From Cephalotus follicularis (lineage: Eukaryota; Streptophyta; Magnoliopsida; Oxalidales; Cephalotaceae), in NCBI GenBank assembly GCA_001972305.1, contig BDDD01000977.1, positions 159,916 through 223,915 on the forward strand: DNA of 64,000 bases, read 5' to 3'. Below are positions 1-63,942 of the stretch, piece after piece. Position 1 is the stretch's first letter; each line of letters begins with the position of its first letter. The position numbers and the translations under genes are program-made. The notes under the pieces were generated by a model that had not been told where the DNA came from, made no database searches, and worked only from the letters and a program-made list of their open reading frames with translations.

Positions 1-370
1 ACGGACGTTGATGTCTTTGCATGTAGGGATCGATGTCTTCAATTAAACTTTGAACATTAGCTTCCATCACTAAAGACGTCGATGTCTTCTTGAAAGGAGT
101 CGATGTCTTTCTGTACGGACGTCGATGTCATTTCTGGAAGTACGATGTCTTTATTATAATTTGATCTTGCACTAAAGACGTCGATGTCTTTTTGGAAGGG
201 ATCGATGTCTTTCTGTACGGACGTCGATGTCATTTCTTGAAGGTCGAAGTCTTCTTCTGCAGATGAGTTTTGCCTTGGTATTGAACTTTGTAATTTCTTG
301 CACATCAAGTAAACTTGTCAAATGCAAATATGTTATCATCAAAACAAGGATTGGGACTAAATCGTCAACA
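1..370 (-). repeat. Sirevirus 3' LTR (partial) with TCGA-palindrome array
   Basis: In minus-strand sense the LTR starts with TGTTGACGATTTAG at 370, immediately after the polypurine tract, and continues past the window start. Bases 69-140 and 171-242 are an imperfect tandem pair with a 102-base period. Inside it the motif AAAGACGTCGATGTCTTY occurs repeatedly (for example near 72-89 and 174-191), with single-motif variants at about 4, 29, 99, 117 and 145. The motif is nearly self-complementary. Confidence 0.8.
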
Positions 371-387
371 ATCTCCCCCTTTTTTAT
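371..387 (-). promoter_or_regulatory. Sirevirus polypurine tract
   Basis: On the minus strand the sequence is an A-run followed by GGGGGAGAT and then the LTR start TGTTG. This is the plus-strand DNA primer site used in reverse transcription; the match to the Sirevirus PPT form is close. Confidence 0.8.
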
Positions 388-1008
388 GATGACAAAAATT
401 TGCTCAAAAGACATAAATTAAAGTAATACCAATTTAAAATCATAAGCAAATACCAATAGAGATATCTTATAATGTAAGCAATGGCAATGTTCATGCAATA
501 TCAAATAAGCAATGAGTTATGCTGTTGAGAGTTCTATCTCCTATATCAATCAAAAAACTTTAGAATTTTGAGCTTTAATCTCCCATATTGAGCATTGAGC
601 CTTTTCTCCCCAAAATTCATACACTCAAGCATTTTGAGCCTATTCTCCCCCTTTTTTGTATAGCATCAAAAAGTTCCACAAGAGGTAGAAATCATTAGCT
701 CCCCCTTAATAAAAGCAAGGGTAAAAAGAATGAACATAGGCATTATGCACAAAATATCAAAATATCGGCAATGAACATAATTATCGGCAATAATTGAGAA
801 AACACATTCATTCAACACAATTATATCATAAACCAAATACACATTCATACAACCATATCACAAACACAATTCATAATAACATAAAATAAAAACATAATTT
901 CATTAACAAACTTTGTTCTTACAAAAAAAAAATATAAACAACATTTAGTTTCATTACAACACAACTGAAACAAGCAAAAAAAAAAACAAATCAAAAACAG
1001 CAACACAA
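388..1008 (-). other. Sirevirus 3' untranslated region with extra PPT-like tracts
   Basis: There is no gene here. AT-rich sequence carries at least two further PPT-like tracts, at about 644-656 (minus AAAAAAGGGGGAGA) and 698-710 (minus AAGGGGGAGC), plus weaker ones near 571 and 605. Multiplied PPT copies upstream of the 3' LTR have been described as a feature of Sireviruses. Confidence 0.65.
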
Positions 1009-2325
1009 TCATGCAGCAGCAGGAGGGGCATCAAAATCAGAGTCATCGCCTGTAGTCTCTTCGCAACCATCAATTGTCTTGGACTCCGCGAGTTTTCGTT
1101 CCATTCTTTTGAGACGCCTCCTTACGACTTTTAGATTGTAGTAGATGGTGTCATTGATGTTATCGAAATCAGAGCGAATCGTCACATGATCTTTTTCCAA
1201 GCTAGTGAGCCGTAAGTTGACTTGCTCAACTTTCTCTTCAAGCAAAGCTTGCATAGAATCAAATCTTGAGTGCATAAACTCCATCATCCTGTCAAAATCA
1301 GTGGAGGATGAGGTTCCTTGAGCTTGAGCCTGAGCAGGTGCAGATTCTCCGTGAGCTTCCCAAGGAGGGTTCTCTTCTTGCTCTTCAATTGCAATCCTTG
1401 GCCCTTGATCAACTTTGGGGCAATAAGTCCAAATGCCTTCTTGCTTTTTCCACCCCATCCTATTCATAGTGCTCTTGTTGTAAGTGTCCTCTTTCTTCAA
1501 TTTCGTTGCAATTTCTCCTTCTAGCCGAATTTGGTGATGTTGGAAGACTTTGGTGAGGATGGATCCGAAGGGTAGAACAGATTTCTTTTGAGAGGATGCT
1601 CTCACCATAGTCTTGAGCATGAGAAGGGGAAAACAAAATTCAATTTTGGAGAGGATGCGCCACATGAGAAAAGCTTGCATCCGGGACAACTTGGCATACC
1701 CACCACCGGTGGGAAGAAATTGGTGTACAATGAGATGGTGGAGTAGCCTATTGTCAACTGATAATCTATTGGTGGTCAGTGCCATATTTGGATGAACATT
1801 TGGATCATTAGGGTAGAGAATGGACAAATTTTGATTAGGGTGAAAACCCTCAACCTCCGGCCATTTTTTATGTTCAAAAATGTATAAACCGGTATGTGGA
1901 ATGTGTAGAATAGAGGCTAGAATCCTAGCATCTAGATAGATTCTCTGCCCTTTGACATAAGAGGAGAGTGCAAATTCCTCATTTGGGCTAGAAACAATCC
2001 GAAGGTGCATGTAAAATTCCTTGACCAGTTTTATGTAAAAAGGGTCCTGGATTTGTACAAGAGGAAGAAGATGGAGATCATCTAACCAGGAAACAAAAGA
2101 AAATTCAGAAGAACAGAAATCCAAGTCTATGTTCCTGCCTCCCATAACCCTTTTATCAACAAAAAACACATTTCTCAAAGGAACTTGCTCTTCGGATTCG
2201 CAATTCGATTGGAGAGCAGGGTCGGGGGAAGACTCTCTAGTCTCAAGCCTTCGGCTTTTAGCAGATTTCTTAGGCTGAGAGGATGAAGCAGCCTTCTTAT
2301 TGGAAGTACGTTTTGTCCTCGACAT
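1009..2325 (-). CDS. Intact 438-aa Sirevirus accessory ORF (putative plant transposon protein family)
   Basis: An uninterrupted 438-codon frame starts at ATG (2325) and ends at TGA. It sits between pol and the 3' LTR, the position of the env-like ORF of Sireviruses. The N-terminus (residues 1-30) is rich in Lys, Arg and Ser (KRTSNKK, KSAKSRR) and could be a nuclear-localisation signal. Residues about 50-300 resemble the plant 'putative transposon protein' domain found in many plant retroelement ORFs. Residues about 335-415 form a likely coiled coil (heptads in MMEFMHSRFDSMQALLEEK and VRRRLKRMERKLAE), and the C-terminus is acidic. I see no signal peptide and no convincing membrane segment, which argues against a classical envelope. 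Function is unknown. It is the only long element ORF here without a stop or frameshift, in an element whose pol is broken. A TATA box was not identified. Confidence 0.75.
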   Translation of the reverse strand: MSRTKRTSNKKAASSSQPKKSAKSRRLETRESSPDPALQSNCESEEQVPLRNVFFVDKRVMGGRNIDLDFCSSEFSFVSWLDDLHLLPLVQIQDPFYIKLVKEFYMHLRIVSSPNEEFALSSYVKGQRIYLDARILASILHIPHTGLYIFEHKKWPEVEGFHPNQNLSILYPNDPNVHPNMALTTNRLSVDNRLLHHLIVHQFLPTGGGYAKLSRMQAFLMWRILSKIEFCFPLLMLKTMVRASSQKKSVLPFGSILTKVFQHHQIRLEGEIATKLKKEDTYNKSTMNRMGWKKQEGIWTYCPKVDQGPRIAIEEQEENPPWEAHGESAPAQAQAQGTSSSTDFDRMMEFMHSRFDSMQALLEEKVEQVNLRLTSLEKDHVTIRSDFDNINDTIYYNLKVVRRRLKRMERKLAESKTIDGCEETTGDDSDFDAPPAAA

Positions 2326-2922
2326 TCTATCAAACAGTTAGAGAACACAACAGACAAACACAAAGAGTGATAAAAACAGACGGATTGGAGGAGATGAAAA
2401 TAGTTTTTGAAGTTGGAGAAGGATTTAGAGGATTGTTTTCGAACAAATAGAATGATTTTTGAAAGAAAAATAAGAGAGTATAAATTTTTGAAAAGACTCA
2501 AAATAGGGTTTACAGTGTATTATGAGCATGAGATCGGCGTTTATATGAAAGAGTCGATTTCTGAGTGAAAGACGTCGACGTGATTCAAAATAAGTCGACG
2601 CGTTCTTTAAAAGAACTGAAGAAATCGATTCAAAAAACGCTACGTTTTTAAAAGCATCGACGCGTTTGTAAAGAAGTCGACGTGTTTCAGGGAAACACAA
2701 AGAGATCGATGTTTTAAAAAGAGATCGACGTGATTTTCATAAGGCATAAACTTTTGCAGAAAAGAAGTCGACGTGTTTTTGTAAAGCATGGAATTTTCCA
2801 GAAAAGAAGTCGACGTTTTTGTAAAACAGAACACAAAATCAAGCAAAAATAGAACAATAAAAAAAATCATCATATCAATTTAACATACAATCAAACATAT
2901 CATTCAAACATAATAAACATCA
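2326..2922 (-). other. Spacer between Sirevirus pol and accessory ORF
   Basis: Noncoding. About 2545-2825 holds a second array of TCGA-centred motifs (GACGTCGACGTG, GTCGACGCG, ATCGATG), each separated by 15-45 bases of unrelated AT-rich sequence. The remainder is AT-rich and shows nothing recognisable. Confidence 0.7.
2545..2825. repeat. TCGA-palindrome array, internal to the Sirevirus
   Basis: About ten copies of (A)RTCGAYGTG or RTCGACGCG occur in some 280 bases (for example near 2571, 2598, 2663, 2685, 2706, 2723, 2766 and 2807). Flanking spacers differ, so this is an array of a conserved short motif rather than a simple tandem repeat. It lies outside the LTR. Confidence 0.75.
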
Positions 2923-4933
2923 TTAAAGCTCACATAAACCTAATTCTCTTCTAAACTTAGAAAAAGAATTTCCATCCAAGGGTTTGGTGAAAATATCCGC
3001 CACTTATTTTTCGGTGGGAATATACTCTAAAACAATGTCACCACTTTCTACATGTTCTCTTAAGAAATGGTATCTAATGTCTATATGCTTTGTCCTAGAA
3101 TGATGGACTGGGTTCTTAGCTAGGCAAATACTACTAGTATTATCACATTTAATAGATACATCTTTAACACATACCATAATCAACCAATTGTTGCTTTTGC
3201 CAAAGAATTTGAGCACAACAACTACCTACAGCAATATATTCAGCTTCGGTGGTAGATAAAGCTACTGAATTTTGCTTTTTACTAAACCAAGAGACAAGCA
3301 TGCTCCCTAGGTATTGGCATGAGCCACTAGTGCTCTTGCGGTCAACTTTATATCCACCAAAGTCAGCATCCGAGTAAGAATGTAAATCAAAATTAGAATC
3401 TCGGGAATACCACAAGCCTAATGTAGGTGTGTATGCAAGATATTTAAAAATCCTTTTCACAGCAAATAAATGGGATTCTTTATGATTGCATTGAAAACGG
3501 GCACACAAGCACACACTAAACAAAATATCGGGTCTACTTGCCGTTAAGTACAACAAAGATCCTATCATACTTCTATAAAGCTTTTGATCGATACTTTTAC
3601 CTTGTTCATCTTTGTCAAGTTTTGTAGAAGTGCTCATAGGAGTCTTGCTTGTTTTGGCTTTCTCCATTCCAAACTTCTTGAGAATATCCTTTGTGTATTT
3701 TGTTTGGTTGATGAAGATCCCATCTTTGTTTTTTGTGACTTGTAATCCAAGAAAGTAGTTGAGCTCTCCCATTAAACTCATTTCAAATTCAGATTTCATG
3801 GTATTTGAAAATTCCTTGCATAAAGAGTCATGAGTAGATCCAAAGATAATATCATCAACATAAATTTGAACAATAAGTAAATCATTACCTTTAGATTTTG
3901 TAAAAAGAGTAATATCGACATTTCCTCGTTTAAAATCATTTTCAATTAAAAACTTTGTCAACCTCTCATACCAAGCACGAGGGGCTTGTTTGAGTCCATA
4001 TAAAGCTTTGTCTAATTTGAAAACATGATTTGGAAAGTGAGGATCCTCAAAACCTTGAGGTTGCTCTACATACACCCCTTCTTCAATAAAACAATTTAAA
4101 AATGCACTTTTCACATCCATTTGATATAACTTGAAATTATTAAAACAAGCAAATGCAAGTAATAAACGAATGGATTCTAGTCTAGCAAACGGTGCATATG
4201 TCTCATCATAGTCTATTCCTTCTTCTTGTGAATAGCCTCTGGCAACTAGTCTAGCCTTGTTTCTAATGATGGTTCCTTGATTGTCCATTTTGTTTCTAAA
4301 ACCCATTTAGTTCCTACAACCGAATGGTCCTTTGGTCTAGGTACTAAAAACCAAACTTTCTTTCTATCAAATTGGTTTAGCTCTTCTTGCATAGCTACTA
4401 TCCAATTTGCATCTTTTTGGCTTCTACAAAGTTCTTGGGTTCTAGGTGAGAAAGGAATGCGACATAGTTACAAGTGTTTGCTCTAGATCTAGTTCTAATC
4501 CCTTGTTGAATGTCACCAATGATAGCCTCATGTGGGTGGTCTCTAACTACCTTATAAGTTTTATCCATAAGTTCTTTTCGGTAACTTTCCTTAGGTTCTA
4601 CATCTATGTCCACCGATGGTTCATGAAATTCTATACTATCATGCACATGTGAAGTAGAATCATGTAACTCATCAAATACAACATGCATAGATTCTTCTAC
4701 TAAAAAAGTATGCTTATTGAAACATCTATAAGCTTTACTAGTGAGGGCGTAGCCAAGAAATATACCTTCATCCGCTTTAGAGTCAAACTTACCAAGTTAA
4801 TCTTGTCCATTGTTGTGTATGAAGCATTTACATCCGAAAGCGCGAAAGTAACTAATGTTAGGCTTTCTCTCCTTCCATAACTCGTATGGAGTCTTTTTGA
4901 GAATTGGTCTTATTGATGTTCTATTTAAAATAT
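2923..4933 (-). pseudogene. pol: Sirevirus pol: integrase C-terminus, RT, RNase H (broken)
   Basis: Minus-strand reading gives the end of integrase (motifs TPYELWKERKPN and FLGYALTSKAYR, about 4900-4720), a linker, then copia RT (KARLVARGYSQEEGIDY, QMDVKSAFLN, the catalytic YVDDIIFG) and RNase H (YSDADFGG, STTEAEYIA), ending in the conserved tail VADIFTKPLDG with TAA at 2923-2925. The enzyme would copy element RNA into DNA in cytoplasmic particles. It is broken: a stop near 4795, small frameshifts near 4405, 4300 and 3170, and loss of everything upstream of 4933. The longest open segment is 3164-4306. Family assignment is secure; the frameshift positions are approximate. Confidence 0.88.
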
Positions 4934-4994
4934 TGTATGAATGATTTTATCTAGTATTTGAGACGTGTTGAGGGAACCATGTTCTGGTTCGCTT

Positions 4995-5395
4995 AACCGT
5001 CGACGCTTAGTAAAGAAGCGTTGACGCTATGGACTGGTTACACGATGAATGAACACTTGCTTTCGCTAACCGTCGACGCAAAAGGGGAAAGCATCGATGC
5101 TTTTTTCTATTATGTGTGATGAACGATATTGGAAGTGTTGACGCGTGAGGTTCCTACCTCAAAGCGCTGACTCCAAGGATTGAAGCGCTGGCGCTTAAGG
5201 GTACATGCCTTGAGCGTCGACGCCAAAGGAGATAAAGGTTGACGCGCAAAACTTCTGGTTGAAAGCGCTGACGCTAAGAGTAAAACCATCGACGCTTAAA
5301 GGACATAAGCGTCGATGCCAAGGGTTAAACGGTGATGCTTAAGTGCTATTTTTGGATGTTAATGCCATATGGTACACGTTGACGCGAATAGAGCC
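4995..5395. repeat. TCGA-palindrome array in Tekay A 5' LTR
   Basis: About 15 copies of a motif with consensus AAGCGTCGACGCTT lie in 400 bases with 15-35 base spacers. Variants are mostly GCGTTGACGC, GCATCGATGC, GCGCTGACGC and GCGTCGATGC, that is, changes at the CG dinucleotides of the palindrome. Confidence 0.85.
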
Positions 5396-5726
5396 CTTTG
5401 GCATTTTGAGCATATGTTTGCATTGCATATTGTTATGGATTGAAATGTATATAATTCCTAAAGTGTTTTATCATTTTAGACAATGGGACTTATGGTTTTA
5501 TTATAACCAGTTTTTTGTATGAAATATTATATTTCAACGGATTGAAACATGGTTTCAAAAGATGATTACATATTTTGAAAAAATATGTTTTGACAAGTAT
5601 TTTATGATACATAAATTACTTGATGATGAATTTGAAAATGATTTATTTTATATCCATTGTGTATATGATTTCAGGCATTTATAAATATATAAATTACTTG
5701 AAACATAATTGACCGAGTTGATTTAT

Positions 5727-5960
5727 TGATTGGATTGGGAGAGCTTTCCCAGCCTACGTGCCAGTTAGCTACGTGCTTTCCTAACCTTGGATGGTTAGTA
5801 TCACATTGTTTGATCGGGTGCTTTTCCCAGCCTATGTGCTGGATAGCTATATGCTTTTCCTAGTCTTGGATGGTTAGCATCTCTGGATTGATGCTGTTCC
5901 TAGCCTACATGCAAGTCCCTACGTGCCTTCCTAGCATTGGATGGTTAGCATCAATATGTG
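5727..5960 (+). repeat. Imperfect ~75-base tandem repeat in Tekay A LTR
   Basis: Three units follow the pattern TTCCCAGCCTACGTGC ... TTCCTAGCCTTGGATGG ... TTAGTATC. The same three units occur in the 3' LTR at about 13090-13320, so the repeat predates insertion. Confidence 0.75.
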
Positions 5961-6039
5961 GATTGGATTGATGGTTCCTTTTGGACTTGATTGATGAATT
6001 GTATGGTTGTAGCCAATATGGATGGACGCTTACCTATTG

Positions 6040-6040
<1 letters not shown>

Positions 6041-6083
<43 letters not shown>

Positions 6084-6120
6084 CTGTGTGTGTGTGTGTG
6101 TGTGTGTGTGTGATATATAT
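6041..6120. repeat. (CA)n(TA)n(TG)n microsatellite with hairpin symmetry
   Basis: About 16 CA units, a short TA tract and about 14 TG units are followed by more TA. The CA and TG arms are complementary, so either strand can fold into a long stem. The 3' LTR has only a short (AT)n here (13400-13422). Confidence 0.9.
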
Positions 6121-6609
6121 TAGTATCGCATCATGAATGCATTCATTACATGACACACATTATTGTTGACCCCATAGTGTATTTATATTTTCTCTACTTA
6201 GCCAGTGGATTCAGCTAACCCTATCAGTTTCAGATTGATGCAGCGGATCAACATCGCTGAGCATGGAGAAATGAAGTGAAGAGTTTAAGTTGTATTTCTT
6301 TAAGGAAATGTTAATTTGGGTATTGTGTAATGGGTTTTGTATTGATGGAAATTGTTAAGAATGGATAAATGTATTTGACTGGATTAGTTCATGCTCCGTT
6401 TTGAGGGCAATTAACAATGATGATGTTATGTTATTGTAACATGTAGTATGGGATGCCTGTTACGTATTTAATTCAGCTTATGATTATATTCTTTCGCAAT
6501 AAAAAGATATGATTAGAAAGTTTTTTTCCCCATATTTTTATATAAGTTGAATATATGTTGATTACCATGACCTCCGGGTCTATGTTGTGAGAACAGGGTG
6601 TGACAACAG

Positions 6610-6624
6610 TGGTATGATAGCATA
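6610..6624 (+). promoter_or_regulatory. Primer-binding site, initiator tRNA-Met (degenerate)
   Basis: TGGTATGATAGCATA lies four bases after the 5' LTR end. It matches the plant tRNA-iMet primer site TGGTATCAGAGC except at three positions, and aligns with the perfect copy in element F (54671). Confidence 0.8.
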
Positions 6625-11253: not shown

Positions 11254-11414
11254 TCTAATGACTAGAAATTCTATTTAATGTACTGTTGTAATTCTCGATA
11301 TAATTTTATCATGAATTAATGAGAAATGATGAATATTCCAACTCATGATGTTGATTTTGGAGGAAGGAATGTTAAGAGTGTTGCATTTGATTAAAATACT
11401 TGAAATTGTCCAAA

Positions 11415-11570
11415 GCGTCGACGCCCAAGAGCAAAGCGTCAACGCCAAGAATACAAAACACGCGTGCAATGCACATTGGCTGCAAAGCATCGACGCCAAG
11501 TGATAGCGTCGACACCAATGAACAAACAGAGTTAAGCGTCGACACTAGGAGGAAAGCGTCGCCGCTTAAA
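11415..11570. repeat. TCGA-palindrome array, distal part of Tekay A 3' LTR
   Basis: About six copies (GCGTCGACGC at 11415-11424, then GCGTCAACGC, GCATCGACGC, GCGTCGACAC, GCGTCGACAC and GCGTCGCCGC) at 15-40 base spacing. Confidence 0.85.
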
Positions 11571-11754
11571 GACAAACAACAGACTCGTTTAAAACACCGT
11601 CAGGAAAACGTGATGGGAGTAGGTATTGACCACTATTCAGCGCCTTATCAAGCCAGAGATGGCGTGTTAGACATGCAGCCATGATTCCGGGACCTGCCAG
11701 TGACTGAATAGAAGAGAGAGAGTGACACATGGGTGACATGTAGCAGGTGAGAAG

Positions 11755-11755
11755 T

Positions 11756-11800
<45 letters not shown>
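11755..11800 (+). repeat. (GA)n microsatellite
   Basis: About 20 GA units lie in the LTR upstream of a purine-rich tract (11890-11980). The minus-strand Ser/Leu-rich reading frames here are artefacts of the repeat. Confidence 0.9.
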
Positions 11801-11802
<2 letters not shown>

Positions 11803-12344
11803 GCACCTGGCACCATGCATGTGCAGGTGTAGAGGAGAGAGAGAGGAAATGCGCATAAAACACACCATTTCCATCCTCCTTGATGCATCAGGAGAAAAGA
11901 AATAAAAATGAAGAGAAAGGGGAGAGAAATAGAGAGAAACACAGAGAGAAATCGGGGAAGAAAGAGGAGAGATAGAGAAGGACGCTTCCTCCATTGTTGG
12001 CCTGGTTCAAAAGCTTGGAAGCTTGGAGTTACTGGACCAAACTTGGAGCTACTGGGAAGCTCAAAAAGCCACTGGTCGGTAAAGCTTAAAGAGGTGGACT
12101 TTGATTCCTAACTTGGAATCTAAGGTAGGGATTATATACATGCAACTTTGAGTTCAATTGTAATAAGTGTTCATTGATGATTTGCATGACTATTGTGGAT
12201 TGAAGATTGATTGAATGATGATATGGCTACTGTGAATAGTAAACTTACCATGCACGTCTTCTGAGTGAAGATGGATTTGATTGCATGTGTTGTATGCATG
12301 ATTTTCTCTAGTATTTGAGACGTGTTGAAGGAACCATCTTCTGC

Positions 12345-12745
12345 TTCGCTTAACCATCGACGCTTAGGGAAGAAGCGTAGACGCTATGGACTTGTTACAC
12401 GATGAATGAACACTTGGTTTTGCTAACTGTCGACGCCTAAAGGAAAAGCATCGATGCTGTAGTCTGTTATGCGAGATGAACAATATTGGAAGTGTTGACG
12501 CGTGAGGTTCCTACCTCAAAGCGTCGACGCCAAGGATTGAAGCGTTGACGCTTAAGGGTCCATGCCTTGAGCGTCGACGCCAAATGAGATAAAGGTTGAC
12601 GTGCAAAGCTTCTAGTTGAAAGCGCTGACGCTAAGAGTAAAAGCGTTGACGCTTAAAGGACATAAGCATCGACTCCAAGGGTTAAACGGCGATGCTTAAG
12701 TGATTGTTTTGGACGTTAACGCCATATGGTTCACATTGACTCAAA
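12345..12745. repeat. TCGA-palindrome array, second block of Tekay A 3' LTR
   Basis: About 14 motif copies collinear with the 4995-5395 array of the 5' LTR. Positions are conserved between the two LTRs, while single copies differ mainly at CG sites. Confidence 0.85.
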
Positions 12746-13916: not shown

Positions 13917-14580
13917 TCAGTAGAATACCCATGATCGCTCAGATAGTCGGTTTTGTGGAATAAAAGAATTAAAAGAGTTATTTAATTCGAAATGCCGGTA
14001 AGAATATTTTTTATGCGATTGAAAAATGTTTTATCGGATAATCGCAGTATTCGCGATTTATTTACGGCCAGCGTCATAATGAACCTAAAGGGTCACACAC
14101 AATACAAGTGACGATCTCCAATACTGGCTTTCAGGAAAATTAATTAGTGTATCACACTAATTAATAAATCATGAGGATGATTTATTATTATGCTATTTTC
14201 CATTGACGAAGCCAAAGGAAGATAACTTAAAGGCTTATATAAAAGCCTTGTTGCCTTAGATTTTTCTAAGTAATCCTTTCTATCTCCTTGCTAGCACTTG
14301 AGAGAAAAGAAAAAGAAAGCAAAAATCCACCATTGTCCGTGAGCGAGAGAGGGAGAGAAAGAGTTCTTTCAAAGCCTTTGCCTTGGCATATCTTGAGAAG
14401 ACCATTGGAGGAGACCTTGGAGATCTCCTGGTGTGGACTAGCTTTGGAGGCCATCTATCTTGGTGGTTTAAATCTTGAAGTTGGATTGTGAAGGAAGGAG
14501 ACAAACCCCCTTGATTATTATATGTAAGTCTCCTTAAAACCTTCCTTGTAAGCATGATGATGCTTTGGTATGTAACAACC
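13917..14580 (+). repeat. LTR-like fragment with TATA box (probably copia)
   Basis: No coding capacity. The stretch has the look of a copia LTR: AACCTAAAGGGTCACACAC near 14085, a TATA box in CTTATATAAAAGCC (14233-14246), then a purine-rich transcribed-leader-like part. Neither end shows a clear TG or CA with a target duplication, so it is called a fragment. The assignment rests on composition and order only. Confidence 0.4.
14235..14244 (+). promoter_or_regulatory. TATA box in LTR-like fragment
   Basis: TTATATAAAA is flanked by AAGGC and GCCTT, which gives a small inverted repeat around the box. Confidence 0.5.
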
Positions 14581-14689
14581 TAGAAATGGCATTAATAGGT
14601 CATTGGATGGATTAATATGTGAGAACGTGTTTTATGTCTTTGTTTCTTCTTTTGGCCAAATTTTTATATGTATGATGTTCTTGAAATTA

Positions 14690-15817
14690 ATTCCAACATA
14701 AGTAACAATAAGCATTTGTGGCACAATTCGTACCAAATTACGAGGTAGGAACTACTGCCAAACCGCTTGTCCAACGCTCCCAAACTCCACTTGCTACTGC
14801 GACAACACACAGAACCCAACAAAATGCTATCCCTGTTGAATAGACATCTATCCAGGAACCCTTCCAAACACCACAGTTTGTACATGCGTCTAACCCACGA
14901 TTGGATATTGAGAGGGGTCAGCCATTCTATGTGACAAGGGATGAGCTACAAACATTGATGTGTAAGGAACGTAACAACTCACCGTTGGCTGACATTGATA
15001 TGATGCCACCTTATCCAGTTAGCTTTGTAAGTATACCCTATCCAGTGGATTACAAGGTTCCTAATTTTATTATGTTTAATGAAAAGATAGGAAGTGCCAA
15101 GGAACATATAGTCCATTTTGTTGATGCCTTTGGGGTGCATGGCTCAGATATGGCCTTGCACCTCCACAAATTTTCCAAGTCATTATGCGATAATGCATAT
15201 ACTTGGTACTCCAATCTACCCCCATGATCGGTGTCAACGTCGGACAATATGGCAGCAATGTCCTATAGAAAGTTCTTCTAGACCCAAACTCGAGTAACAG
15301 TGATGGATTTGGGATGCATCACCTAGCAAGACAACAAGGATTATATGCTTATTTGGAGCATTTTAAAGGCCAAGTTATGGAATGTTAAGAGAACATGAAT
15401 GAAGAACATGTGGTAGATATTTGTATCCGAGGTATGGCTGATGAATATGGAGTGTTCCTAGAGAATATAAACATTAGGACCCTGAACCATCTCACTTGAG
15501 CGGTCAAATGGATAGTAGAATCTGTGAAAAAGGTCATGACCAAAGTTACAAGACCTCCCAGAAGAGGACCAACTTCAGCAAATGTAGTCAAGACAAAAGG
15601 ATCAAAGAAGAGAAAACCAGGCGATAACGGCAAACCTTTACCCTTGCTTATCAGCGTAGAAAAGGCAAATCAGTTGCTGCATCAATGGCTGCTTGATGGA
15701 GATGTCCGATTGCCGTTTGTACAAAACCTTCCTACACCAGCAAACGTTTCAAAGTTGAATTATTGTCTCTTTCATCAATACGTGGGACATGCAACATGGG
15801 ACTTCTACTCGGTCTAA
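14690..15817 (+). pseudogene. gag: Tat element C gag (broken)
   Basis: A Pro/Thr/Gln-rich N-terminus leads into the Tat capsid pattern (KVPNFIMFNEKIG, VHFVDAFGVHG, LHKFSKSLCDNAYTWYSNLPP at about 15050-15225). The reading continues through several stops (about 15225, 15280, 15325, 15390) to a Lys/Arg-rich segment and a decayed zinc finger (CLFHQYVGHATWDF, last Cys lost) at about 15760-15805. It would be the particle coat protein. Confidence 0.75.
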
Positions 15818-16139
15818 CGGGATTTTCATCAAAAGGTCTAGGAGGGACTACTTGTGATTGAGCCCAGAGACATCCAAGATAACTCTTTGCTTGACACCCA
15901 CAAGATGAACAGGTAAATGTATGTACCTATATCACAAGCATCCCTTAACTCAATTATATTGTCGAAGAAGTAGAAGATCCATCGGTGGATGATTCCTTCC
16001 ATGTCAGTGAGATAGATAACCAAGATTACAACTATCAACCACTAGCAGAAGCCTTGCTGTGGAGTTCCAATGTAAGGAGTTTCTTCAACCATTTGGGCTT
16101 CAATGATTTAGCAAGCACGCTGTTGTCTAAGAGCTGGTA
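15818..16139 (+). other. Gag-protease spacer of element C
   Basis: Degenerate coding sequence with stops in all plus frames. It is probably the gag-pol linker of the Tat element; no motif is recognisable. Confidence 0.4.
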
Positions 16140-16803: not shown

Positions 16804-17129
16804 GATGGTGCGTGGGGACAGGAGGATTCACCAACCGTGGCCCCAAGCATACGAAATACAAGCATTTGAACCTGCCCTGGAGTACTAACAGGATGTCCCG
16901 AGACCATAACAAGATGAACTCAAGGAAGTCAACCTTAGTCCTGACAATGCTATAAAAACTATAGTTCTAGTTAGTAAGGTTGTCCCTCTATGTGTTCGGG
17001 GTGGGTTGCAAAATTTGTTAGAATAATTTCAAGATGTGTTTGTTTGGGTTTACCAGTTAATGCCTAGATTAGATGTTTTGCTTGGTCCATATACATTATA
17101 TGTTTCTTCTGATTACTAACCTGTTATGG

Positions 17130-18236: not shown

Positions 18237-18389
18237 ATGGATAGATGGTTAATGATCTTGACATAATTTGACATTAATGTGTAATTAAACAGTGCAATCA
18301 AAAGCCAGGCTCTCACCGATCTATTAGCCCAATTCCCATCGCAGGACCTGGAGGTAAGAAATCTCGGGAGATGTCCAAGAAGTACACCT

Positions 18390-35394: not shown

Positions 35395-35395
35395 T

Positions 35396-44392: not shown

Positions 44393-44595
44393 TAGCTTAA
44401 AACGAGGAAGAAGAAACTGCTAAAGAAATCTGAGAATGACTTAGAACGGCAAGAAGATGACAGGAACTTACCAAGAATTTTGATGAAGAGTGATGAGATA
44501 GGGTTCCGAAAGCACAGCAAACTTAGAAGGCTCTCAACGGTGATGTAAGTACTGAAGATTGAAGGAGCGAAAGGTTTGCTTAGAGAAGAATACCA

Positions 44596-48736: not shown

Positions 48737-49960
48737 TTGGTTGAGTCATTTGTGCATGAAAAATCAAAAGAACAGTTGGTTGACTCCTTTGCGGAACCAA
48801 AAAAATTAAATGTGCAAGGAGAAGTTAGGGAAGAGAAAGAAAAAGAAAAAGAGAAAAATGAACAATTAATGGAAATACCCAAGCGTTCATTTGATCCCCC
48901 AGTTCCTTTTCCAAGGAGATTACAAAATGCGAAAGCCCCCGCAATGGAAAAGATCATCAATACGTTTAAACCAGTTCAAATCAATATCCCATTGCTTGAA
49001 GCCATTGAGCAGGTGCCCTCTTATGTAAAAATCCTAAAAGACTTATGCACGAAAAAGAGGATCCTTCAAACTCTGAAAAAGGCTTTCTTGGCAGCCAATA
49101 TCACTGCGATCATTTCGCAACCAAAGATTCGAAAATACAAAGATCCTGGCTGCCCGACAATCTCTTGCGTAATTGGAAACACCAAAATCGATCATGCCTT
49201 GCTTGATTTAGGAGCAAGTGTGAATTTGTTACCTTTGTCAGTTTTTGAGAAACTCGGTTTAGGAGAGTTGCGACTGACCAACACGACTTTGCAATTAGCT
49301 GATAGGTAGGTAAAAGTACCAAGAGGGAAAATTGAGGATGTTTTGATAAAGGTTGGTGAGTTTTTATTTCCTGTCGACTTTGTCGTATTAGATACCCAGC
49401 CTGTTGTAAATATAAAAGACCAAATCTCAGTTATCCTTGGTAGACCATTCTTGGCCACAAGTAATGCATTGATCAATTGCCGAAATGGTCTCATGAAGTT
49501 GAGTTTTGGAAAGTCGTCGATGGACTTTAACATTTTCCGATTGGGAAAGCATCAATCTGACTTTGATGATGTCTACGTGATTCGCTCTATTCCTGATACC
49601 ATTTATTCGTATTTTAATATCGACTTTGATCGCAATTTCATGAGAGAATTAGACGTAGAGGAAGCTAACCAAAAGGATAGATTGACGTGGCTAGAAAATA
49701 AGGAAGCGTTAATGTGGTTGGACAATAAGCTCAATGAGCCAAATTCGAATATTGAATGGGATCATCTATCCCATTACACTCACAAAATTGCCATGCCTGA
49801 CCAAATGTACTTTGACAAAGATTTTGATAACAACTTCATGGAATGCTTGAGAGAATTCGAGGAATTAGAGGTTACGCAAAAAGAGATATTGAGTTGGTTG
49901 GACGATGGGATCATCGATTTTTTTTCGGATAGTCAATGGCAGGTTGGCCACGATTTTTGT
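48737..49960 (+). pseudogene. pro: Athila element G protease and acidic linker
   Basis: A Lys/Glu-rich N-terminus (KEKEKEKNEQL) leads to RSFDPPVPFPRRLQNAK, the usual Athila lead-in. Protease active site LLDLGASVNLLPLSVFEKLG at about 49200-49260; one TAG at 49306; then the second conserved piece ILGRPFLATSNALINCRNG at about 49434-49490. From about 49560 an acidic linker (DFDRNFMRELDVEEANQKDR, DFDNNFMECLREFEELEVTQ) with duplicated phrases. In complete Athila elements this linker leads into RT; here it runs in frame into the aromatic-rich modules. Confidence 0.82.
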
Positions 49961-50733
49961 GATTCTCTTGATGGTTTCTACTGGTGGAGATCGTGTTGGC
50001 ATGGTTCTAAAATTGTAAAAATTGTTTTCTCCCATTGTGCGTGTAAGGTTGCTAAGATAGGTTTAGGTGATGCATTTGAATGTTTTTGTTCTCTATATGG
50101 TTTTTACTGGTGGAAGTCCTATTGGGACGATGCTTACATTGTTTATTGGCAATCTTTACGTTCTGTTGACAACGTTTTTCACTGTTATTGTTCTCTTGAT
50201 GGTTTCTATTGGTGGAGATCGCGTTAGGATGGTTCTAAAATTGTAAAAATTGTTTTCTCCCATTATGTGTGTAAGGTTGCTAAGATAGGTTTAGGTGATG
50301 CATTTGAATGTTTTTGTTCTCTATATGGTTTTTACTGGTGGAAGTCCTATTGGGGTGATGCTTACATTGTTTATTGGCAATCTTTATGTTCCGTTGACAA
50401 CGTTTTTCACTGTTATTATTCTCTTGATGGTTTCTATTGGTGGAGATCTTGTTGGGATTGCTCTTATATTGTTAAATTTGTTTTCTCATGTGGTATGTTT
50501 AAGATTCACATGCTGCATTCAAATGTTCTTGTTCTAATGATGGATTTTATTGGTGGACATCCTTTTGGGATGATGCTTATATTGTTAAACCTATGCCTTC
50601 ACATGGTGTTTTTGAGATATGTAAGCCAGGTACTGAAGATGTGTTCAAGGTAAATGGGCAGCGATTGAAATTTTTTTTAGAGATTCTGGCTGTGACGATG
50701 GAGGAGGCCATGGACTTGCATGAGCCTCCATGA
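49961..50733 (+). pseudogene. Tandem aromatic-rich modules replacing RT/integrase in G
   Basis: In frame with the protease ORF come six modules, each opening [DY]GFYWW[RKT]S. Modules of about 43 and 33 residues alternate, making a 228-base (76-codon) higher-order repeat (starts near 49971, 50199 and 50427). The last module continues DAYIVKPMPSHGVFEI and FKVNGQRLKFF and ends at TGA 50731. That ending matches the Athila integrase C-terminus (pattern RSRW-GPF-V--VFPHG-VEI ... FKVNGQRLK). WWRSCW...IVKIVFSH in the other modules fits the same pattern, so they look like copies of the GPY/F-type segment. A TAG (from TGG) at about 50225 and a frameshift near 50510 interrupt it. Function unknown. Confidence 0.7.
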
Positions 50734-53519: not shown

Positions 53520-54667
53520 TGGACAATAAGCATCGACGCGTTGGGGAAAGGCGTCGACGCCTTTCCTCCTGGTTTGAATGGTTTGACCCAATTTGGCCCT
53601 GTTGGCTCTGGAACGATTCTAGAAATGACCCTAGACATGTTTGAGCATATTGTTGCATTGCATACTACTGTGAATTGAATCATTATGATACCGCATGATT
53701 TCTTAAATGGTTTTTGATTTGAGAAATGTGTATATGATGTTGTGCGGAAATGTATATTTTCCCAAAAGGATTGCGAAATGGTTACACAAAATTGAAATTA
53801 TGTTATACGGACATGAGTATTTTCGAAAGATCGGAATACATTTTTAATGTATTGTTTTCAAGTATTTTATGATACACTAAAACTACTTGAAAAGGATTGA
53901 AAAAAGGACTCTTATATATTGAGTAAAATATATATATGTTTCAAGAATTTATACTTATAAATCACTTGAAAAGGAGTGTGGAATTTTTATAACTACTGAA
54001 CTCTGTTGGGTGAGTAGCTGAAACTGTAAACTGTGTTAAAAAGGACTGATGCCCACTTGGGATGTTTTGGTTATATATATATATATATTCATGTATATCC
54101 TGTGTTATTTATGTTTTGCATCATGAATGCATTCGTTTCATGTCATTCATTACTTGATCCCAAAATGTATATATACTTAGCCGAGTGATGACAAAGGCTA
54201 ACCCCCTACTATTTCGGATTGACGGAGGCAATCAGACAAGTGCAGTTAAGGCTAATTTGGGAGCTGCTATTTGAAGGTTGCTTAAACTAATTTTGTATTA
54301 TGATAATCCTACTCATGTTGGAGAGGATGATAACTTGTACTTGTTCAAATTGGATAATTTGTATTTTGGGTTTGAAAGAATGATTTGGGTAACTGATTTA
54401 TATATGTGAACTTCTCTTTCGAAGATACTTATGGTTAAAATGAAGGTTTATTCACGCTCTGTTTTGTGAGCATTTAACAATGATATTGTTTTGTTACAAC
54501 ACGTAGTATGGGATGCGTGTTACGTTGCTAGTTCGGCTTATATTTGACAGCTTCCGCAATTGATATATCTGTTTTAAAATGGTTTAAATTTATCATAAAA
54601 TGGATAAGCCGGATAGTTATATTAATTGCTACCACTGAAATGTCGTTTGGAAAACGGGGTGTGACAA
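53520..54667 (+). repeat. 5' LTR of F, second part
   Basis: Begins with the duplicated TGGAC and runs collinear with the 3' LTR from about 57956 (AATAAGCATCGACGCGTTGGGG) to about 58505, where an (AT)n replaces a longer stretch in the other copy. Ends GGGGTGTGACA. Confidence 0.85.
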
Positions 54668-54670
54668 GAT

Positions 54671-56514: not shown

Positions 56515-56665
56515 AAACGCGTCGATGTCCTTTGGAAAGACGTCGACGCCTATGGGAACAAAGGGCGCACATGAATGCATGTACATGCACGTCGATGTAG
56601 GCGAAGACATCGACACCCTCGTATGAAAGAGGAAAAAACATCGACGTCTAAGGAAGACATCGAAG
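56515..56665. repeat. TCGA-palindrome array, first block of F 3' LTR
   Basis: Collinear with 32035-32195. Differences between the two LTRs include GCGTCGATGTC against GCATCGATGTC and GACATCGACAC against GACATTGACAC, again at CG sites. Confidence 0.82.
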
Positions 56666-57444: not shown

Positions 57445-58000
57445 TCTTAAACGTCGATGCTCTTGTGGTAAGCATCGATGTCTTTATGCGATAAGGCAAT
57501 AGACGTCGACGTCTTATTTAAGCGTCGATGTCTATTTCAAACATTTGCATACTGCAATGTTTACTTCTGGACTTTGTGGACTTTTGATGGATTGATGATT
57601 TGGTTATACATATGAATAACCTATTGTGCGTGTTACGCCATAAGTAATGAATCTGGAATTGCATGAGTGGATGGAGGATGAATTCTTCCTTGAAATGGAG
57701 TTTGGACGAGGTTATACCTCCTGGTACCACTTAATCGTCGACATCTATAGAAGGCATCGACGTCTTCGGTTGCTGTGTGTTAGGTCTAATGCATAACGCG
57801 AGGACGGGTTACGTTCCTACCTTAAGCGTCGACGCATTGTGATGCACATCGACGCCCAAGGGTTTGGGCTCGTAGGCATCGACGCCTACAGAAAAATGTC
57901 GACGCGTTTCAAACTGTTACAAGCACTGTTATTGGAAATGAACCTCGACGCTTTTGGACAATAAGCATCGACGCGTTGGGGAAAGGAGTCGACGCCTTTC
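57445..58000. repeat. TCGA-palindrome array, second block of F 3' LTR
   Basis: About 15 motifs, for example GACGTCGACGTC near 57502, AGCGTCGATGTC near 57520, AAGCGTCGACGC near 57823 and AAGCATCGACGCG near 57963. Confidence 0.82.
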
Positions 58001-58752: not shown

Positions 58753-59947
58753 GCTGGTTAAATTTACGATAACCTTATTATAGGTTTATAATAGGTCTAC
58801 CTAGGACCATTTAGAATGGCTAAACCGGACCCAAGGGGTATTTCGGTAATTTATGAACACCTCTCTGATAAATAATATTTTAAAGGGTCTCTACCTTATA
58901 ATGATTAGATCTTTAATATGTTAGACATATTAAGTCCTGGTGTCAAATATCGGTTGTGTGGATTTTGCATTTTCTGGAAACACATATGCTTGATCTTACT
59001 TAACCAATATTCGAAGGGTACATGAGATCACTAAAAGAGTTAGACTTTTAATGCTTCACTGGCCAGACAAAGACGTCGATGTCTTTTAGAAAGACGTCGA
59101 TGTCTGACGTTTTTAAAGACGTCGATGTCTTTTAGAAAGTGTCGATGTTTTTAGTGCCACATTGCATGGGGGTCGACGTCCTTCGGAAGGCGTCGACGTC
59201 TTTGAGCAGAACGTGCAACCTGTGCACGAGCTCACTTCGTGGGCACGATTTCTCTCTCATATCCAGCATCCACCTCCTGTTCTTGCACGTTTTAGAAACA
59301 TGAGAATCATGGCTTCGGGCTCCCAGGGAGTGAAGGCCATGATCCTAAGTGAACGGGAGATTGGGAGAGAGGATTGGAGGCTAGTAATAGGCATTTTCTG
59401 CAGAAAATGTACAAGGGTGAAAAGTGAAAAAGTTTGAGTTTTGCTGGGCAAGAGAGCTCAAATTCTTCTCTGCAGTGTGTTCTCTTCATCTGTGATACAC
59501 CAAGCAAGAGCTTATCTAGGGTGGATTGATCATTGACTTCATTGGTCAATATCAATATACCTTTTCTGAGCTAAGTGAGAGAGAGTGTGAGTTTATACAC
59601 TTTATCATTGCTGGTTGGATTGCTTGTTGTTCCTGAGACTTGGAGAACATCAAAGGGGAATCTACTCAAGCGTGTAGCGGCAAAGAAAGAAGGATCCTTC
59701 ACCCGCTGGTATAATTTTGGTCCTTCTTATCTTGCCATGTTTGTGTGTCACCATTGTTAGCAATGGTGACACCAATTCAATTCTGTTGATGTTGTGGTGA
59801 TCCATGTGGTCTGTGGACGTACCATAATGGATTGGTTTTGTTTTATTGGTTGTTATTCCGCTGCCATGATTGTATGTTTTGTTTTGTTCTACACCCTACA
59901 CACCAAAGTCCATTTTGGCACCGGATTCGGTTTATCCGATTCCATCA
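58753..59947 (+). repeat. 5' LTR of J (start hidden) with palindrome array
   Basis: Matches the 3' LTR from AGGACCATTTAGAATGGC onward (58790 here, 62822 there). 59070-59205 holds GACGTCGATGTCTTTT four to five times, then GGTCGACGTCC and GCGTCGACGTCTTT. Ends ...TTCCATCA at 59947. Confidence 0.85.
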
Positions 59948-59948
59948 G

Positions 59949-59960: not shown

Positions 59961-61158
59961 GTCCCACATCATCCTTAATTGAATATGTATGCCTTAGATG
60001 ATGTACTGATTAATGGTTTAATTAATGGATGTGTTTTGTGATCAAACTAAATTTTCAAAGTGCCTTAATGAAAATTGCATGAAATTGGATTTCATTGTGT
60101 TTTTGTGCTGGGAATGTTGTTTTAATGTGTTTAGAATTATGTTTGGAACATGCATAGTGAATTTTAGAATGCCAGAATGGTATTCCATAGTCTAAACCAT
60201 TGTTTTCAGCATTTTTAGAAATGCAAAAACTGCCCAGGGGGCTATAGACGTCGACGTTCTTGGTAGACGTCGATGTCTTGTTCATATTCCCAGGACAGAC
60301 GACGATGTTCTTGATAGACGTCGATGTCTTGTTCATCTTTTTGTGAAACGCGTTGATGTTCTTGTTGAACGTCGACGCCTTTTTCAACTGTTCTTGAGAG
60401 AGGCATTGATGCTCCTGTTATGCGTCGACACCTTGTTCAAGTATTTCCAGAAAACACGTCGATGCTATTGATAAGCGTCGACGTCTTTTATAAATAAATA
60501 CAAAAAACTGTTTTTAAATAAAATTAGATTTTATACATTTTGGCACTTGGAAAATTAAAAATCATTGCTTGATTTAGTGGGAGTTTGATCAATTAACAAT
60601 CCTTGAATTAAATTGAGTAATTGGTTATTATTTATGGCATGTGTTTTATTTGTGGTTTTATTATATTGGATATAATATAGATCTTATGCACAATGGATGG
60701 CCCGAAAAGGATTTTGACCTAGGTTATGGTTTTCTATGTGTGAATGGATATTTATTTATTTATTATTTTAAAGGTCTATAATAAGGTGTCTGCGTGCACC
60801 ATTTCTTTTTCCTTACTTTTGTTATTTCTCCTTGTAATTTTTAAATGTAATTTTTCTTTTCAAAAATGTAAAGTTCTTTTTGTAAAAGAAGACCATGCAA
60901 GGAGAGATGGAGGAAAGGAGAAATGAAGAACAAGATTTTTGAAGGCCATGTATGCATGGTTATTGATGTAATAAATAGATTTAAATCTTTACACCTAGGA
61001 AGACCTAGTAGTGACTTTGGGCTCAAGTCATTACTAATATTGTCCTTGCCAAATCCATTGACATATTTTAGAAATATGTCCAAGGTGCATAAGATACACG
61101 TCTTGCATGATAAGCCGTAATTAATTGGAATTGGCTAATAAAACCAATGAATTAATTA
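59961..61158 (+). other. Leader of J with TCGA-palindrome array
   Basis: No gag is recognisable. 60240-60490 holds about 12 motifs (GACGTCGACGTTC, GACGTCGATGTC, GACGACGATGTTC, GCGTTGATGTTC, ACGTCGACGCC, GCATTGATGC, GCGTCGACACC, ACGTCGATGC, GCGTCGACGTC). The rest is AT-rich. Confidence 0.75.
60240..60490. repeat. TCGA-palindrome array outside the LTR, in J leader
   Basis: Alternating GACGTCGAYGT and TTCTTG/TCTTGTTC spacers give pairs about 20 bases apart. It is distinct from the LTR array of the same element, which uses CTTTTAGAAA spacers. Confidence 0.82.
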
Positions 61159-62763
61159 ATGGCTCTGATGAAACACAAGTCAGAGTCCTTTGAGAAATTT
61201 AAGGAGTTCCGACTTGAAGTAGAAAAACAAACAGGTAAATCCATTAAAATACTTCAGTCGAACCGAGGTGGGGAATACCTGTCAGCTGAATTCCTAGGTT
61301 ATCTTAGAGATAACGAAATTCTATCTCAGTGGACTCCTCCTGGAATACCACAGCATAATGGTGTGTCCGAAAGGAGGAATCGAACTTTGTTAGACATGGT
61401 TCGATCGATAATGTCTTTTGCTGACCTTCCTACCTATCTCTGGGGTTATGCCCTAGATACAACTGCTTATATCTTGAAATAGATTCCTTCAAAATCTGTG
61501 CCTTCTACTCCATACCAGGTATGGTCAAGGAGGAAACCCAGTCTGAACAATTTGAAGGTTTGGGGCTGTCCTGCTTATGTCAAGAGGCTTGACGCAGATA
61601 AGCTGGAAGCGCGGTCAGACCGTTGCAGGTTTGTGGGGTATTCTAAAGAGACTAAAGGATACTATTTCTATCACCCTCGCGAACAAAAGATATTTGTTTC
61701 GCAAAATGCTGTGTTCCTAGAGAAGGAATACCTTCTTGAAGGAAACAGTGGGAGTAAGGTGGAACTCAAGGAGTTGCCACAGGTAGAAACCACACAGGAG
61801 ATGGAGGAGTTGGAGGTTATACCTTCAACAGACACAGCTGAGATTGGATGTCAGGCTGAGAATAGTTCTAAGTTAGGCAGAGCTCCTTTGAGGAGATCAG
61901 GCAGAATCCCATTAGCACCTGAGAGGTATGGATTCCTCATTGATGGTACTGATGAGATAAACGTCATTGAAGATGACGAGCCTGCCAGCTACATAGAGGC
62001 AGTGCAAGGCACTGAATCTGAAGCATGGCTAGGAGCCATGAAATCCAAAATGGATTCCATGTACTCCAACCAAGTATGGAATTTGGTTGAAGCACCCGAA
62101 CGCATAGTGCCTATTGGCTGCAAATGGATCTTCAAGAAGAAGATGAATGCAGATGGAAAGATCGAGACTTATAAAGCTCGATTAGTGGCGAAAGGTTATA
62201 GGCAACCACATGGAGTCGACTATACTGAGACTTTCTCACTTGTCGCCATGCTTAAATCCATTAGGATTTTGCTTGCTATTGCTGCTCATTATGATTATGA
62301 GATATGGCAAATGGATGTCAAGACGACATTTTTAAATGGGCGTCTTGAAGAGGATATTTATATGTCCCAACCCGAGGGATTTACATCTTCTGAGCACCCG
62401 CACATGGTGTGCAAGCTCGAAAGGTCCATCTATGGACTAAAGCAAGCGTCTCGTAGCTGGAATCTATGTTTCGATGAAGCAGTCAAAGCTTTTGACCACG
62501 TTAAAAATGTAGATGAGCCATGTGTTTATCGAAAGCAAGAGGGTCCTAGTATCACTTTCTTAGTGCTATATGTAGATGACATTCTACTCATTGGGAATGA
62601 TGTAGGGATGTTGCAGTCTGCAAAGATATGGCTAACTAAGAATTTTTCCATGAAAGATTCGGGAGAAGCCACCTATATACTGGGTATTAGGATCTTCAGG
62701 GATAGATCCAATAGATTGCTTGGGCTTTCCCAATGGTTATTGAGGTGTGGGAAAATTAATTAG
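61159..62763 (+). pseudogene. pol: Element J integrase-RT fragment
   Basis: Integrase from SESFEKFKEFRLEVEKQTGK through SNRGGEYLS (usual RSDRGGEY has Asp; Asn here), WTPPGIPQHNGVSERRNRTL (catalytic Glu present); one TAG at 61480; then a 421-codon open stretch with TPYQVWSRRKPSL, FVGYSKETKGYYFY, RT motifs CKWIFKKKMNADG, YKARLVAKGY, QMDVKTTFLNG, YGLKQASRSW and catalytic YVDDILLIGND, up to RDRSNRLLGLSQ at about 62730. There the frame jumps into sequence just before the 3' LTR and ends at TAG/TAA 62761. RNase H is absent. Sequence before SESFEKF is leader, so the N-terminal domains were deleted too. Confidence 0.85.
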
Positions 62764-63942
62764 ATTAATTTTTCCATCTGGATAATATTTGGATATTATT
62801 CCAATAGCATTTAAATTGGTCGAGGACCATTTAGAATGGCTAAACCGGACCCAAGGGGTATTTCGGTAATTTATGAACACCTCTCTGATAAATAAATTTT
62901 AAAGTGTCCCTGCCTTATAATGATTAGATCTTTAATATGTTAGACATATTAGTCTTGGTGTCAAATATCGGTTGTGTGGATTTTGCATTTTGTGGAAACA
63001 CATATGCTTGATCTTCTTAACCAATATTCGAAGGGTACATGAGATCACTAAAAGAGTTAAACTCTTAATGCTTCACTGGCCAGACAAAGACGTCGATGTC
63101 TAACGTTTTTTAAAGACGTCGATGTCTTTTAGAAAGCGTTGATGTTTTTAGTGCCACATTGCATGGGCATCGACGTCCTTCGGAAGGCATCGACGTCTTT
63201 GAGCAGAACGTGCAACCTGTGCACGAGCTCACTTCGTGGGCACGATTTCTCTCTCATATACAACATCCACCTCCTGTTCTTGCACGTTTTAGAAACTTGG
63301 GAATCATGGCTTCGGACTCCCAGGGAGTGAAGGCCATGATCCTAAGTGAATGGGAGATTGGGAGAGAGAATTGGAGGCTAGTAATAGGCATTTTCTGCAG
63401 AAAATGTACAAGGGTGAAAAGTGAAAAAGTTTGAGTTTTGCTGGACAAGAGAGCTCAAATTCTTCTATGCAGTGTGTTCTCTTCATCTGTGATACACCAA
63501 GCAAGAGCTTATCTAGGGTGGATTGATCATTGACTTCATTGGTCAATATCAATATACCTTTTCTAAGCTAAGTGAGAGAGAGTGTGAGTTTATACACTTT
63601 ATCATTGCTGGTTGGATTGCTTGTTGTTCTTGAGACTTGGAGAACATCAAAGGGGAATATACTCAAGCGTGTAGCGGCAAAGAAAGAATGAGCCTTCACC
63701 CGCTGGTATATTTTTGGTCCTTCTTATCTTGCCATGTTTGTGTGTCACCATTGTTAGCAATGGTGACACCAATTCAATTATGTTGATGTTGTGGTGATCC
63801 ATGTGGTCTGTGGATGTGCCATAATGGATTGGTTTTGTTTTATTGGGTGTTATTCCGCTGCCATGATTGTATGTTTTGTTTTGTTCTACACCACACACCA
63901 ACGTCCATTTTGGCACCGGATTCGGTTTATCCGATTCCATCA
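62746..63942 (+). repeat. 3' LTR of J (1,197 bases)
   Basis: Starts TGTGGGAAAATTAATTAG after a weak purine stretch (TTATTGAGG) and ends TCCGATTCCATCA. Palindrome array at about 63085-63205. Compared with the 5' LTR it lacks one GACGTCGATGTC unit. Confidence 0.85.

Follow-up and report, generated by a model that had tools for sequence, protein, structure and literature searches.

The 64,000-nucleotide window analyzed here (Cephalotus follicularis contig BDDD01000977.1, forward strand, positions 159,916 to 223,915) is a nest of long terminal repeat (LTR) retrotransposons. Self-comparison revealed LTR pairs for six elements, and in three of the six one LTR is split by a nested insertion. Four elements, a Sirevirus, two Tekay elements (A and F) and an element designated copia J, carry arrays of a short palindrome with a TCGA center. 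One dyad recurs in the control regions of copia and gypsy elements, two superfamilies represented here by three array-bearing lineages. The arrays are located in LTRs, in the Sirevirus linker ahead of an ENV-like open reading frame (ORF), and in the copia J leader. The first-pass annotation, made from the sequence alone, had listed thirteen arrays; the arrays stand, and their number becomes 15 blocks when arrays a, b, and c of Tekay A are separated and both LTR copies are listed. A unit is called strict when its center matches at least six of the eight letters of CGTCGACG. The relevant features are the following:

1 to 250, minus strand: Sirevirus 3′ LTR array, truncated at the edge of the window, with six strict units
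about 361 to 385: candidate Sirevirus polypurine tract (PPT)/LTR junction; in its reverse complement, GATTGTTGAC follows a purine tract
1009 to 2337, minus strand: Sirevirus ENV-like ORF (Pfam Transposase_32)
2540 to 2545, minus strand: TATAAA, directly downstream of the Sirevirus linker array and before the ENV-like ORF
2553 to 2814, minus strand: Sirevirus linker array with seven strict units, in the interval between pol and the ENV-like ORF
3164 to 4306, minus strand: Sirevirus reverse transcriptase (RT; Pfam RVT_2, E 1e-68)
4999 to 5382, plus strand: Tekay F 5′ LTR array with 11 strict units, within the truncated 5′ LTR (4933 to 6610)
11415 to 11563, plus strand: Tekay F array with six units, early in the 3′ LTR
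12354 to 12720, plus strand: main array of the Tekay F 3′ LTR, 14 strict units
24781 to 27496, no strand assigned: solo LTR TGTAACACCC...GGGTATTACA, its ends carrying an imperfect 5-bp repeat
26178 to 26385, no strand assigned: solo LTR array of another palindrome, CAGTCGACTG, nine units at a pitch of about 21 bp
32025 to 33425, plus strand: Tekay A 5′ LTR arrays a, b, and the start of c (LTR 31842 to 33476, split by a nested element)
53530 to 53562, plus strand: end of array c of the Tekay A 5′ LTR, on the far side of the nested insertion
56519 to 56665, plus strand: Tekay A 3′ LTR array a, six units
57451 to 57530, plus strand: Tekay A 3′ LTR array b, four units
57735 to 57994, plus strand: Tekay A 3′ LTR array c, ten strict units
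59073 to 59198, plus strand: copia J 5′ LTR array, six units
60248 to 60483, plus strand: copia J leader array, nine units
60489 to 60494, plus strand: TATAAA, 10 bp past the last unit of the copia J leader
61483 to 62763, plus strand: copia J RT ORF (Pfam RVT_2, E 2e-62)
63090 to 63195, plus strand: copia J 3′ LTR array

The names SIRE, Tekay, and Athila/Tat follow the first-pass annotation. The Pfam domains for gypsy and copia agree with them: both RT ORFs listed above carry the copia domain RVT_2, and RVP_2, Retrotrans_gag, RVT_1, and rve are among the domains of other ORFs in the window. Copia J is assumed to be Angela-like. Its RT shows 35% identity over 202 residues to that of the Sirevirus, which suggests that the two belong to different copia lineages. 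The LTRs of Tekay A and F are collinear homologs (61.8% over 705 columns, E 8e-34; 58.8% over 1007 columns, E 3e-19), and we thus count three lineages rather than four or five. Because of this collinearity, the start of the Tekay F 3′ LTR was shifted to about 11254; the repeat now extends to about 13921, which makes it exceed the truncated 5′ copy by about 1 kb. LTR-pair divergence in the three array-bearing pairs is 9.1% for Tekay F, 4.9% for Tekay A, and 3.3% for copia J. The Sirevirus, its LTR being cut by the window, contributes 13 strict units; counting one LTR per element, there are 20 in Tekay F, 20 in Tekay A, and 15 in copia J. We take the candidate PPT/LTR junction to be of a Sirevirus-like type, although the second LTR is absent from the window. 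Ahead of the Sirevirus LTR, the minus strand has repeated purine tracts (361 to 385, about 643 to 658, and about 698 to 708), which resemble the multiple PPTs known from Sireviruses. All 120 matches listed for the ENV-like protein (of 364) are from Cephalotus follicularis, the best by E-value at 87% over 99%.

The palindrome arrays are confirmed to be real. GTCGAC occurs 41 times in the window (mean 5.56 and maximum 11 in 100 shuffles) and RTCGAY 124 times (mean 38.8, maximum 53), so that the density is well above that of shuffled sequence. The excess falls almost wholly in the solo LTR and in the four elements Sirevirus, Tekay F, Tekay A, and copia J. When each part is compared with the mean of 200 shuffles, the counts are 19 versus 2.4 in the Sirevirus part, 6 and 6 versus 1.0 each in the Tekay F LTR segments, 16 and 17 versus 1.2 and 1.5 in the Tekay A LTRs, 6 and 4 versus 0.9 and 0.8 in the copia J LTRs, 9 versus 1.6 in the copia J interior, and 6 versus 1.5 in the solo LTR. 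The Athila-like, inner, and 13922-19346 parts stay within the shuffle range (highest in the Athila-like interior, 6 versus 2.5, largest shuffle 8). The observed/expected CpG ratio is 0.82-1.00 in the Tekay LTRs and 0.62-0.66 in the copia J LTRs; the Athila-like LTRs, which have no arrays, lie at 0.88-0.93.

To describe the unit, the strict set was pooled with four extra RTCGAY sites in the Sirevirus, giving 72 units from the four elements. Information content is at least 0.38 bits across positions -8 to +8 and at most 0.22 bits beyond. What the elements have in common is a dyad of 16-18 bp, AAAR-CRTCGAYG-YTTT, longer than the 10-14 bases originally proposed. It comes in two flavors, GC-flanked in Tekay F and AC/GT-flanked in the Sirevirus and most of copia J; Tekay A is mixed.

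Units from one superfamily predict the arrays of the other. For this, as for the gap and bit-score analyses, the strict set was used. When an 18-bp model is trained on the 28 copia units (10 Markov resamples per part), it detects 17 and 18 sites in the Tekay A LTRs, 6 and 5 in the Tekay F LTR segments, and 4 in Tekay F 11390-12289. Elsewhere it finds 0-2 per Athila-like, inner, or 13922-19346 part, 0-1 per part of the split element L, and none in the solo LTR. Conversely, a model trained on gypsy units detects 16 sites in the Sirevirus and, in copia J, 6 in the 5′ LTR, 10 in the interior, and 6 in the 3′ LTR. Resample means for the cross-predicted array parts are 0-0.7, and none of the four models exceeds three sites (0-3) in any Athila-like, inner, or 13922-19346 part.

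The array in the solo LTR, which had been included in the same family, has a different motif. None of the four CRTCGAYG models detects a site there, whereas its palindrome CAGTCGACTG has nine units matching at least 8 of 10 letters (Markov null mean 0.4; 14 such matches in the remaining window). The gaps between them are 21, 22, 21, 28, 21, 22, 42, and 20 bp. The units read CAG[T/C]CGACTG, and their CCGAC variants are similar to a dehydration-response core. The earlier assignment of the motif therefore stands for the Sirevirus, Tekay A and F, and copia J but not for the solo LTR.

The spacing of units was analyzed over 63 gaps, with five units of the solo LTR among those counted and a 6-bp exclusion rule applied. 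Of these, 34 are 18-23 bp long (31 at 19-22 bp), 3 fall at 24-28 bp, 11 at 29-34 bp, none at 35-41 bp, and 12 at 42-53 bp; 3 are longer. With the solo array left out, short and long gaps alternate in 40 of 50 cases (28.5 expected, p 0.0005). This is seen in Tekay (25/30, p 0.002) and in copia J (10/11, p 0.02), and doublets about 20 bp apart are therefore the rule in two of the three lineages.

The LTRs of the two Tekay elements were also compared by global alignment. The unit at 57802 of Tekay A was dropped from this alignment and from the CpG-asymmetry and bit-score analyses. In the global alignment, 14 of 19 Tekay A centers coincide exactly with Tekay F centers, and 16 of 19 do so within 2 bp. 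Identity is 90/125 (72%) in the cores versus 719/1319 (54.5%) outside the units (Fisher p 1.5e-4); the other positions of the units (79/153) and the spacers within arrays (93/172) match the background level. Copia and gypsy elements do share a core, as had been proposed, but the description of the families as unrelated does not extend to Tekay A and F.

CpG sites within the arrays have decayed less since insertion than those in the rest of the same LTRs (27/107 versus 40/93, stratified odds ratio 0.39, p 0.004). By element, the figures are 15/40 versus 23/33 in Tekay F and 9/54 versus 15/40 in Tekay A. This pattern is compatible with arrays that are covered by protein or less methylated. As array CpG decay is the lower, the proposal that the motif is purely a methylation target is disfavored, with copia J, described below, as an opposite case.

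Several known systems resemble these arrays. Palindromic motifs, termed RMs, were reported from 13 Sireviruses, where they occur in LTRs and, in elements that have an ENV gene, also a short way upstream of it, and were called Sirevirus-specific (Bousios et al., 2010; PMC2829016). They were stated to be absent from "classic" retrotransposons, the comparison set apparently being Ty1/copia. A regulatory role was suggested, and a common binding factor was not found by those authors (PMC2829016). Like the RMs, the unit described here is a dyad-symmetric palindrome in at least eight copies per element, and the Sirevirus in the window has both an LTR array and an array upstream of its ENV-like ORF (2553-2814). 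Unlike them, it has the core CRTCGAYG in place of the CGG-CCG signature, to which the Tnd-1 RM ACAATCGATTGT is a published exception (PMC2829016), and it occurs also in Tekay A and F (gypsy) and in copia J, beyond a single lineage. The Vitis RM, CGGTCGACCG, has a GTCGAC center (PMC2829016). What was already known is thus wider than the first-pass annotation stated, which named maize Sireviruses with a different motif. The maize palindrome, CACCGGACNNNGTCCGGTG, is the most abundant motif in the structured regions of Copia elements and in Helitrons (PMC10760457, citing Bousios 2016). It is likewise one palindrome in more than one superfamily of transposable elements (TEs), but those are Copia and Helitrons, and it is read mainly as RNA structure and a source of small RNAs. 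No report of one dyad common to copia and gypsy LTRs was found among the results listed by our literature searches on shared or palindromic LTR motifs. The novelty lies in a single site that copia and gypsy elements of one window have in common.

We consider it slightly better than an even chance (about 0.53) that the arrays are homotypic enhancer clusters for a putative host dimeric DNA-binding factor, a reading based on sequence patterns. The 16-18 bp dyad would be bound as double-stranded DNA by such a dimer. Dimers would sit about two helical turns apart, mostly as doublets in Tekay and copia J, where the spacing itself is observed. Bound arrays would drive transcription of the element from its LTR; for the two internal arrays, in the linker of the Sirevirus and the leader of copia J, transcription may start from an internal TATA box, since TATAAA follows both at 10-11 bp (base rate 1.7% per 21 bp). 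SIRE, the other copia lineage, and Tekay may have converged on one factor, or a seed array may have spread early, with selection on the unit alone thereafter. Of the three uses originally suggested, docking on DNA is the one we favor. If one 16-18 bp site serves both copia and gypsy, the binding factor would be a single findable target for several TE families, where palindromic LTR arrays had been a Sirevirus trait with no binding factor identified (PMC2829016).

A stronger version remains tentative and, in our view, would more probably fail than hold. It proposes that one host dimeric factor is a common entry to TE transcription, that gypsy and copia elements built their arrays independently under the same spacing rule, and that the unit flanks change together (Tekay A and copia J alike, Tekay F different) while promoters track a drifting or switching factor. 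If so, motif change over element age could be read as a record of change in the host factor.

A number of results weigh against the enhancer reading. The search for a plant factor yielded no match. One candidate is NONAMERATH4, the histone H4 promoter motif AGATCGACG (PMC3658923): 8 of its 9 letters match ACATCGACG, which itself fits the unit consensus, but the exact word occurs once in the window, in a single unit, and is a lead rather than a match. As to spacing, clustering at 18-23 bp is significant only at p 0.02 against a shifted exponential, and the absence of gaps below 18 bp is due solely to the exclusion rule (six such gaps appear without it). The Sirevirus shows no doublet alternation (5/9 versus 5.1 expected), and the homologous Tekay A and F are not independent in the alternation count. 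For gaps of at least 25 bp, past the first mode, helical phasing does not reach significance (p 0.42), and it was rejected as a proven rule. The proximity of TATAAA to the internal arrays was noticed post hoc; in the Sirevirus the 11 bp are measured from a weak last unit at 2555, the last strict unit (2576) being about 32 bp away. TATA-like boxes lie 68-401 bp downstream of the Tekay LTR arrays, none was found within 450 bp downstream of the Tekay F array TekF_up, and the copia J LTRs have only TATACA-type boxes. Anchoring of the aligner on the motifs may inflate core conservation in Tekay. Inner/outer CpG asymmetry within units is 33 versus 9, and post-insertion decay, at 8 versus 4, is not clearly different; simple CpG decay as the origin of the CRTCGAYG degeneracy is neither shown nor excluded by these counts. 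Non-CpG differences are commoner in arrays (50/788 versus 156/3746), and their lower CpG decay is therefore not a matter of general conservation. Copia J is opposite in CpG decay (3/13 in arrays versus 2/20), each of its seven single-sided variants at ±3 is G.U-type, which preserves pairing in RNA, and its two arrays give the strongest RNA folds (z -7.35 and -5.31).

Among the alternatives to enhancer clusters, an anti-silencing function, though unlikely, fares best. A TE-encoded or host factor would bind the motif and bring about demethylation of the DNA nearby, in the manner of VANC on VANDAL elements, and other families would borrow the site. Dense motif arrays recruit VANC, a methylation-removing protein, including in an unrelated element (PMC5735166), and VANC6 motifs occur in the unrelated AT9TSD1 elements (PMC5735166). 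In both systems, dense short motifs stand in tandem repeats of non-coding TE DNA and are shared with an unrelated element, and the lower CpG decay of the arrays would fit as well. VANC targets differ in that they belong to DNA transposons, their motifs YAGTATTAY and AGTTGTCC/AC are not palindromes, and the binder is known and element-encoded (PMC5735166). In the window there is no candidate for such a trans factor. The Sirevirus ENV-like ORF has a predicted long helix at its end (residues 344-417), but the protein model is poor (mean predicted local distance difference test score, pLDDT, 38.9) and comparison with PDB sequences gave three matches, none below E 0.1 (best E 0.11). The missing CpG effect in copia J also speaks against this alternative.

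Spread of one minisatellite between families, by recombination or by template switching in mixed particles and with no shared function, we regard as quite improbable. Unit length and pitch are similar across families, yet the solo LTR has a similar pitch with another sequence, and in Tekay the core alone is conserved above background. Tekay A units score higher with the copia J model (17.2 bits) and the Sirevirus model (14.5) than with that of their own LTR homolog Tekay F (12.2), which brings them closer to copia J; the low last value may be due in part to decay of Tekay F, the most diverged LTR pair. Spacers of 24 cross-lineage array pairs were aligned with units held at ±9 bp and spacers shuffled. 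None of the 24 survives correction (lowest p 0.03), in a test of low power. The two homologous Tekay pairs give p 0.007 and, for array a of Tekay A versus TekF_up, p 1.0; since one of two true homologs also fails, an old transfer could escape this test. With ±7 bp held, array a of Tekay A versus J5 (z 5.8) and the Sirevirus LTR array versus J5 (z 3.1) exceed the spacer shuffles, and part of the likeness therefore sits in the outer unit flanks. The four extra Sirevirus sites also entered the ±7 bp test and part of the ±9 bp spacer and alternation tests. Spacers, described earlier as unrelated, are so between lineages within these limits but not between Tekay A and F, whose LTRs are collinear at 59-62%.

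The least likely explanation is a signal at the RNA level, with units that fold into hairpins or kissing dimers in the RNA of the elements (for packaging or dimerization) or feeding the production of small interfering RNAs: hairpin units should favor sense-strand G.U-type over A.C-type variants, but the totals are 13 versus 14 (copia J 7 versus 0, Tekay A 4 versus 6, Sirevirus 2 versus 5, Tekay F 0 versus 3). All eight folded array stretches exceed their shuffles in stability (z -2.05 to -7.35), and maize Sirevirus palindromes are reported to attract excess small RNAs (PMC10760457), although the six stretches outside copia J lie at z -2.05 to -3.27, values that the palindromes by themselves may produce. 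Near the unit center, at ±1 to ±5, paired arm changes are not in excess (p 0.41-1.0); farther out, p falls to 0.009 at ±6 and 0.018 at ±7. RNA structure as the common cause, and with it the suggested Gag signal, is thus disfavored, while for copia J, given its variants and folds, an RNA role may apply.

Some further observations concern other parts of the window and sequences beyond it. No ENV-like gene was found among the Tekay and copia J ORFs scanned. Two RT queries against a viral contig collection gave no confirmed relatives, and an exact motif scan of that collection hit 26 contigs with one site each, mostly sparse in the motif, with one (L005) dense at 59 RTCGAY sites. An antisense ORF in the inner gypsy element (43664-44419) has a weak Transposase_28 match. 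A pair of GAGTCGACTC units in element L was rejected as an array, both being within one 60-bp duplication. Element L also has 27/58-bp tandem repeats in both LTRs (20451-20645 and 28237-28336), which differ in copy number. In the Athila-like interior, a 228-bp tandem repeat (49962-50487, 2.3 copies) overlaps the ORF at 49310-50227.

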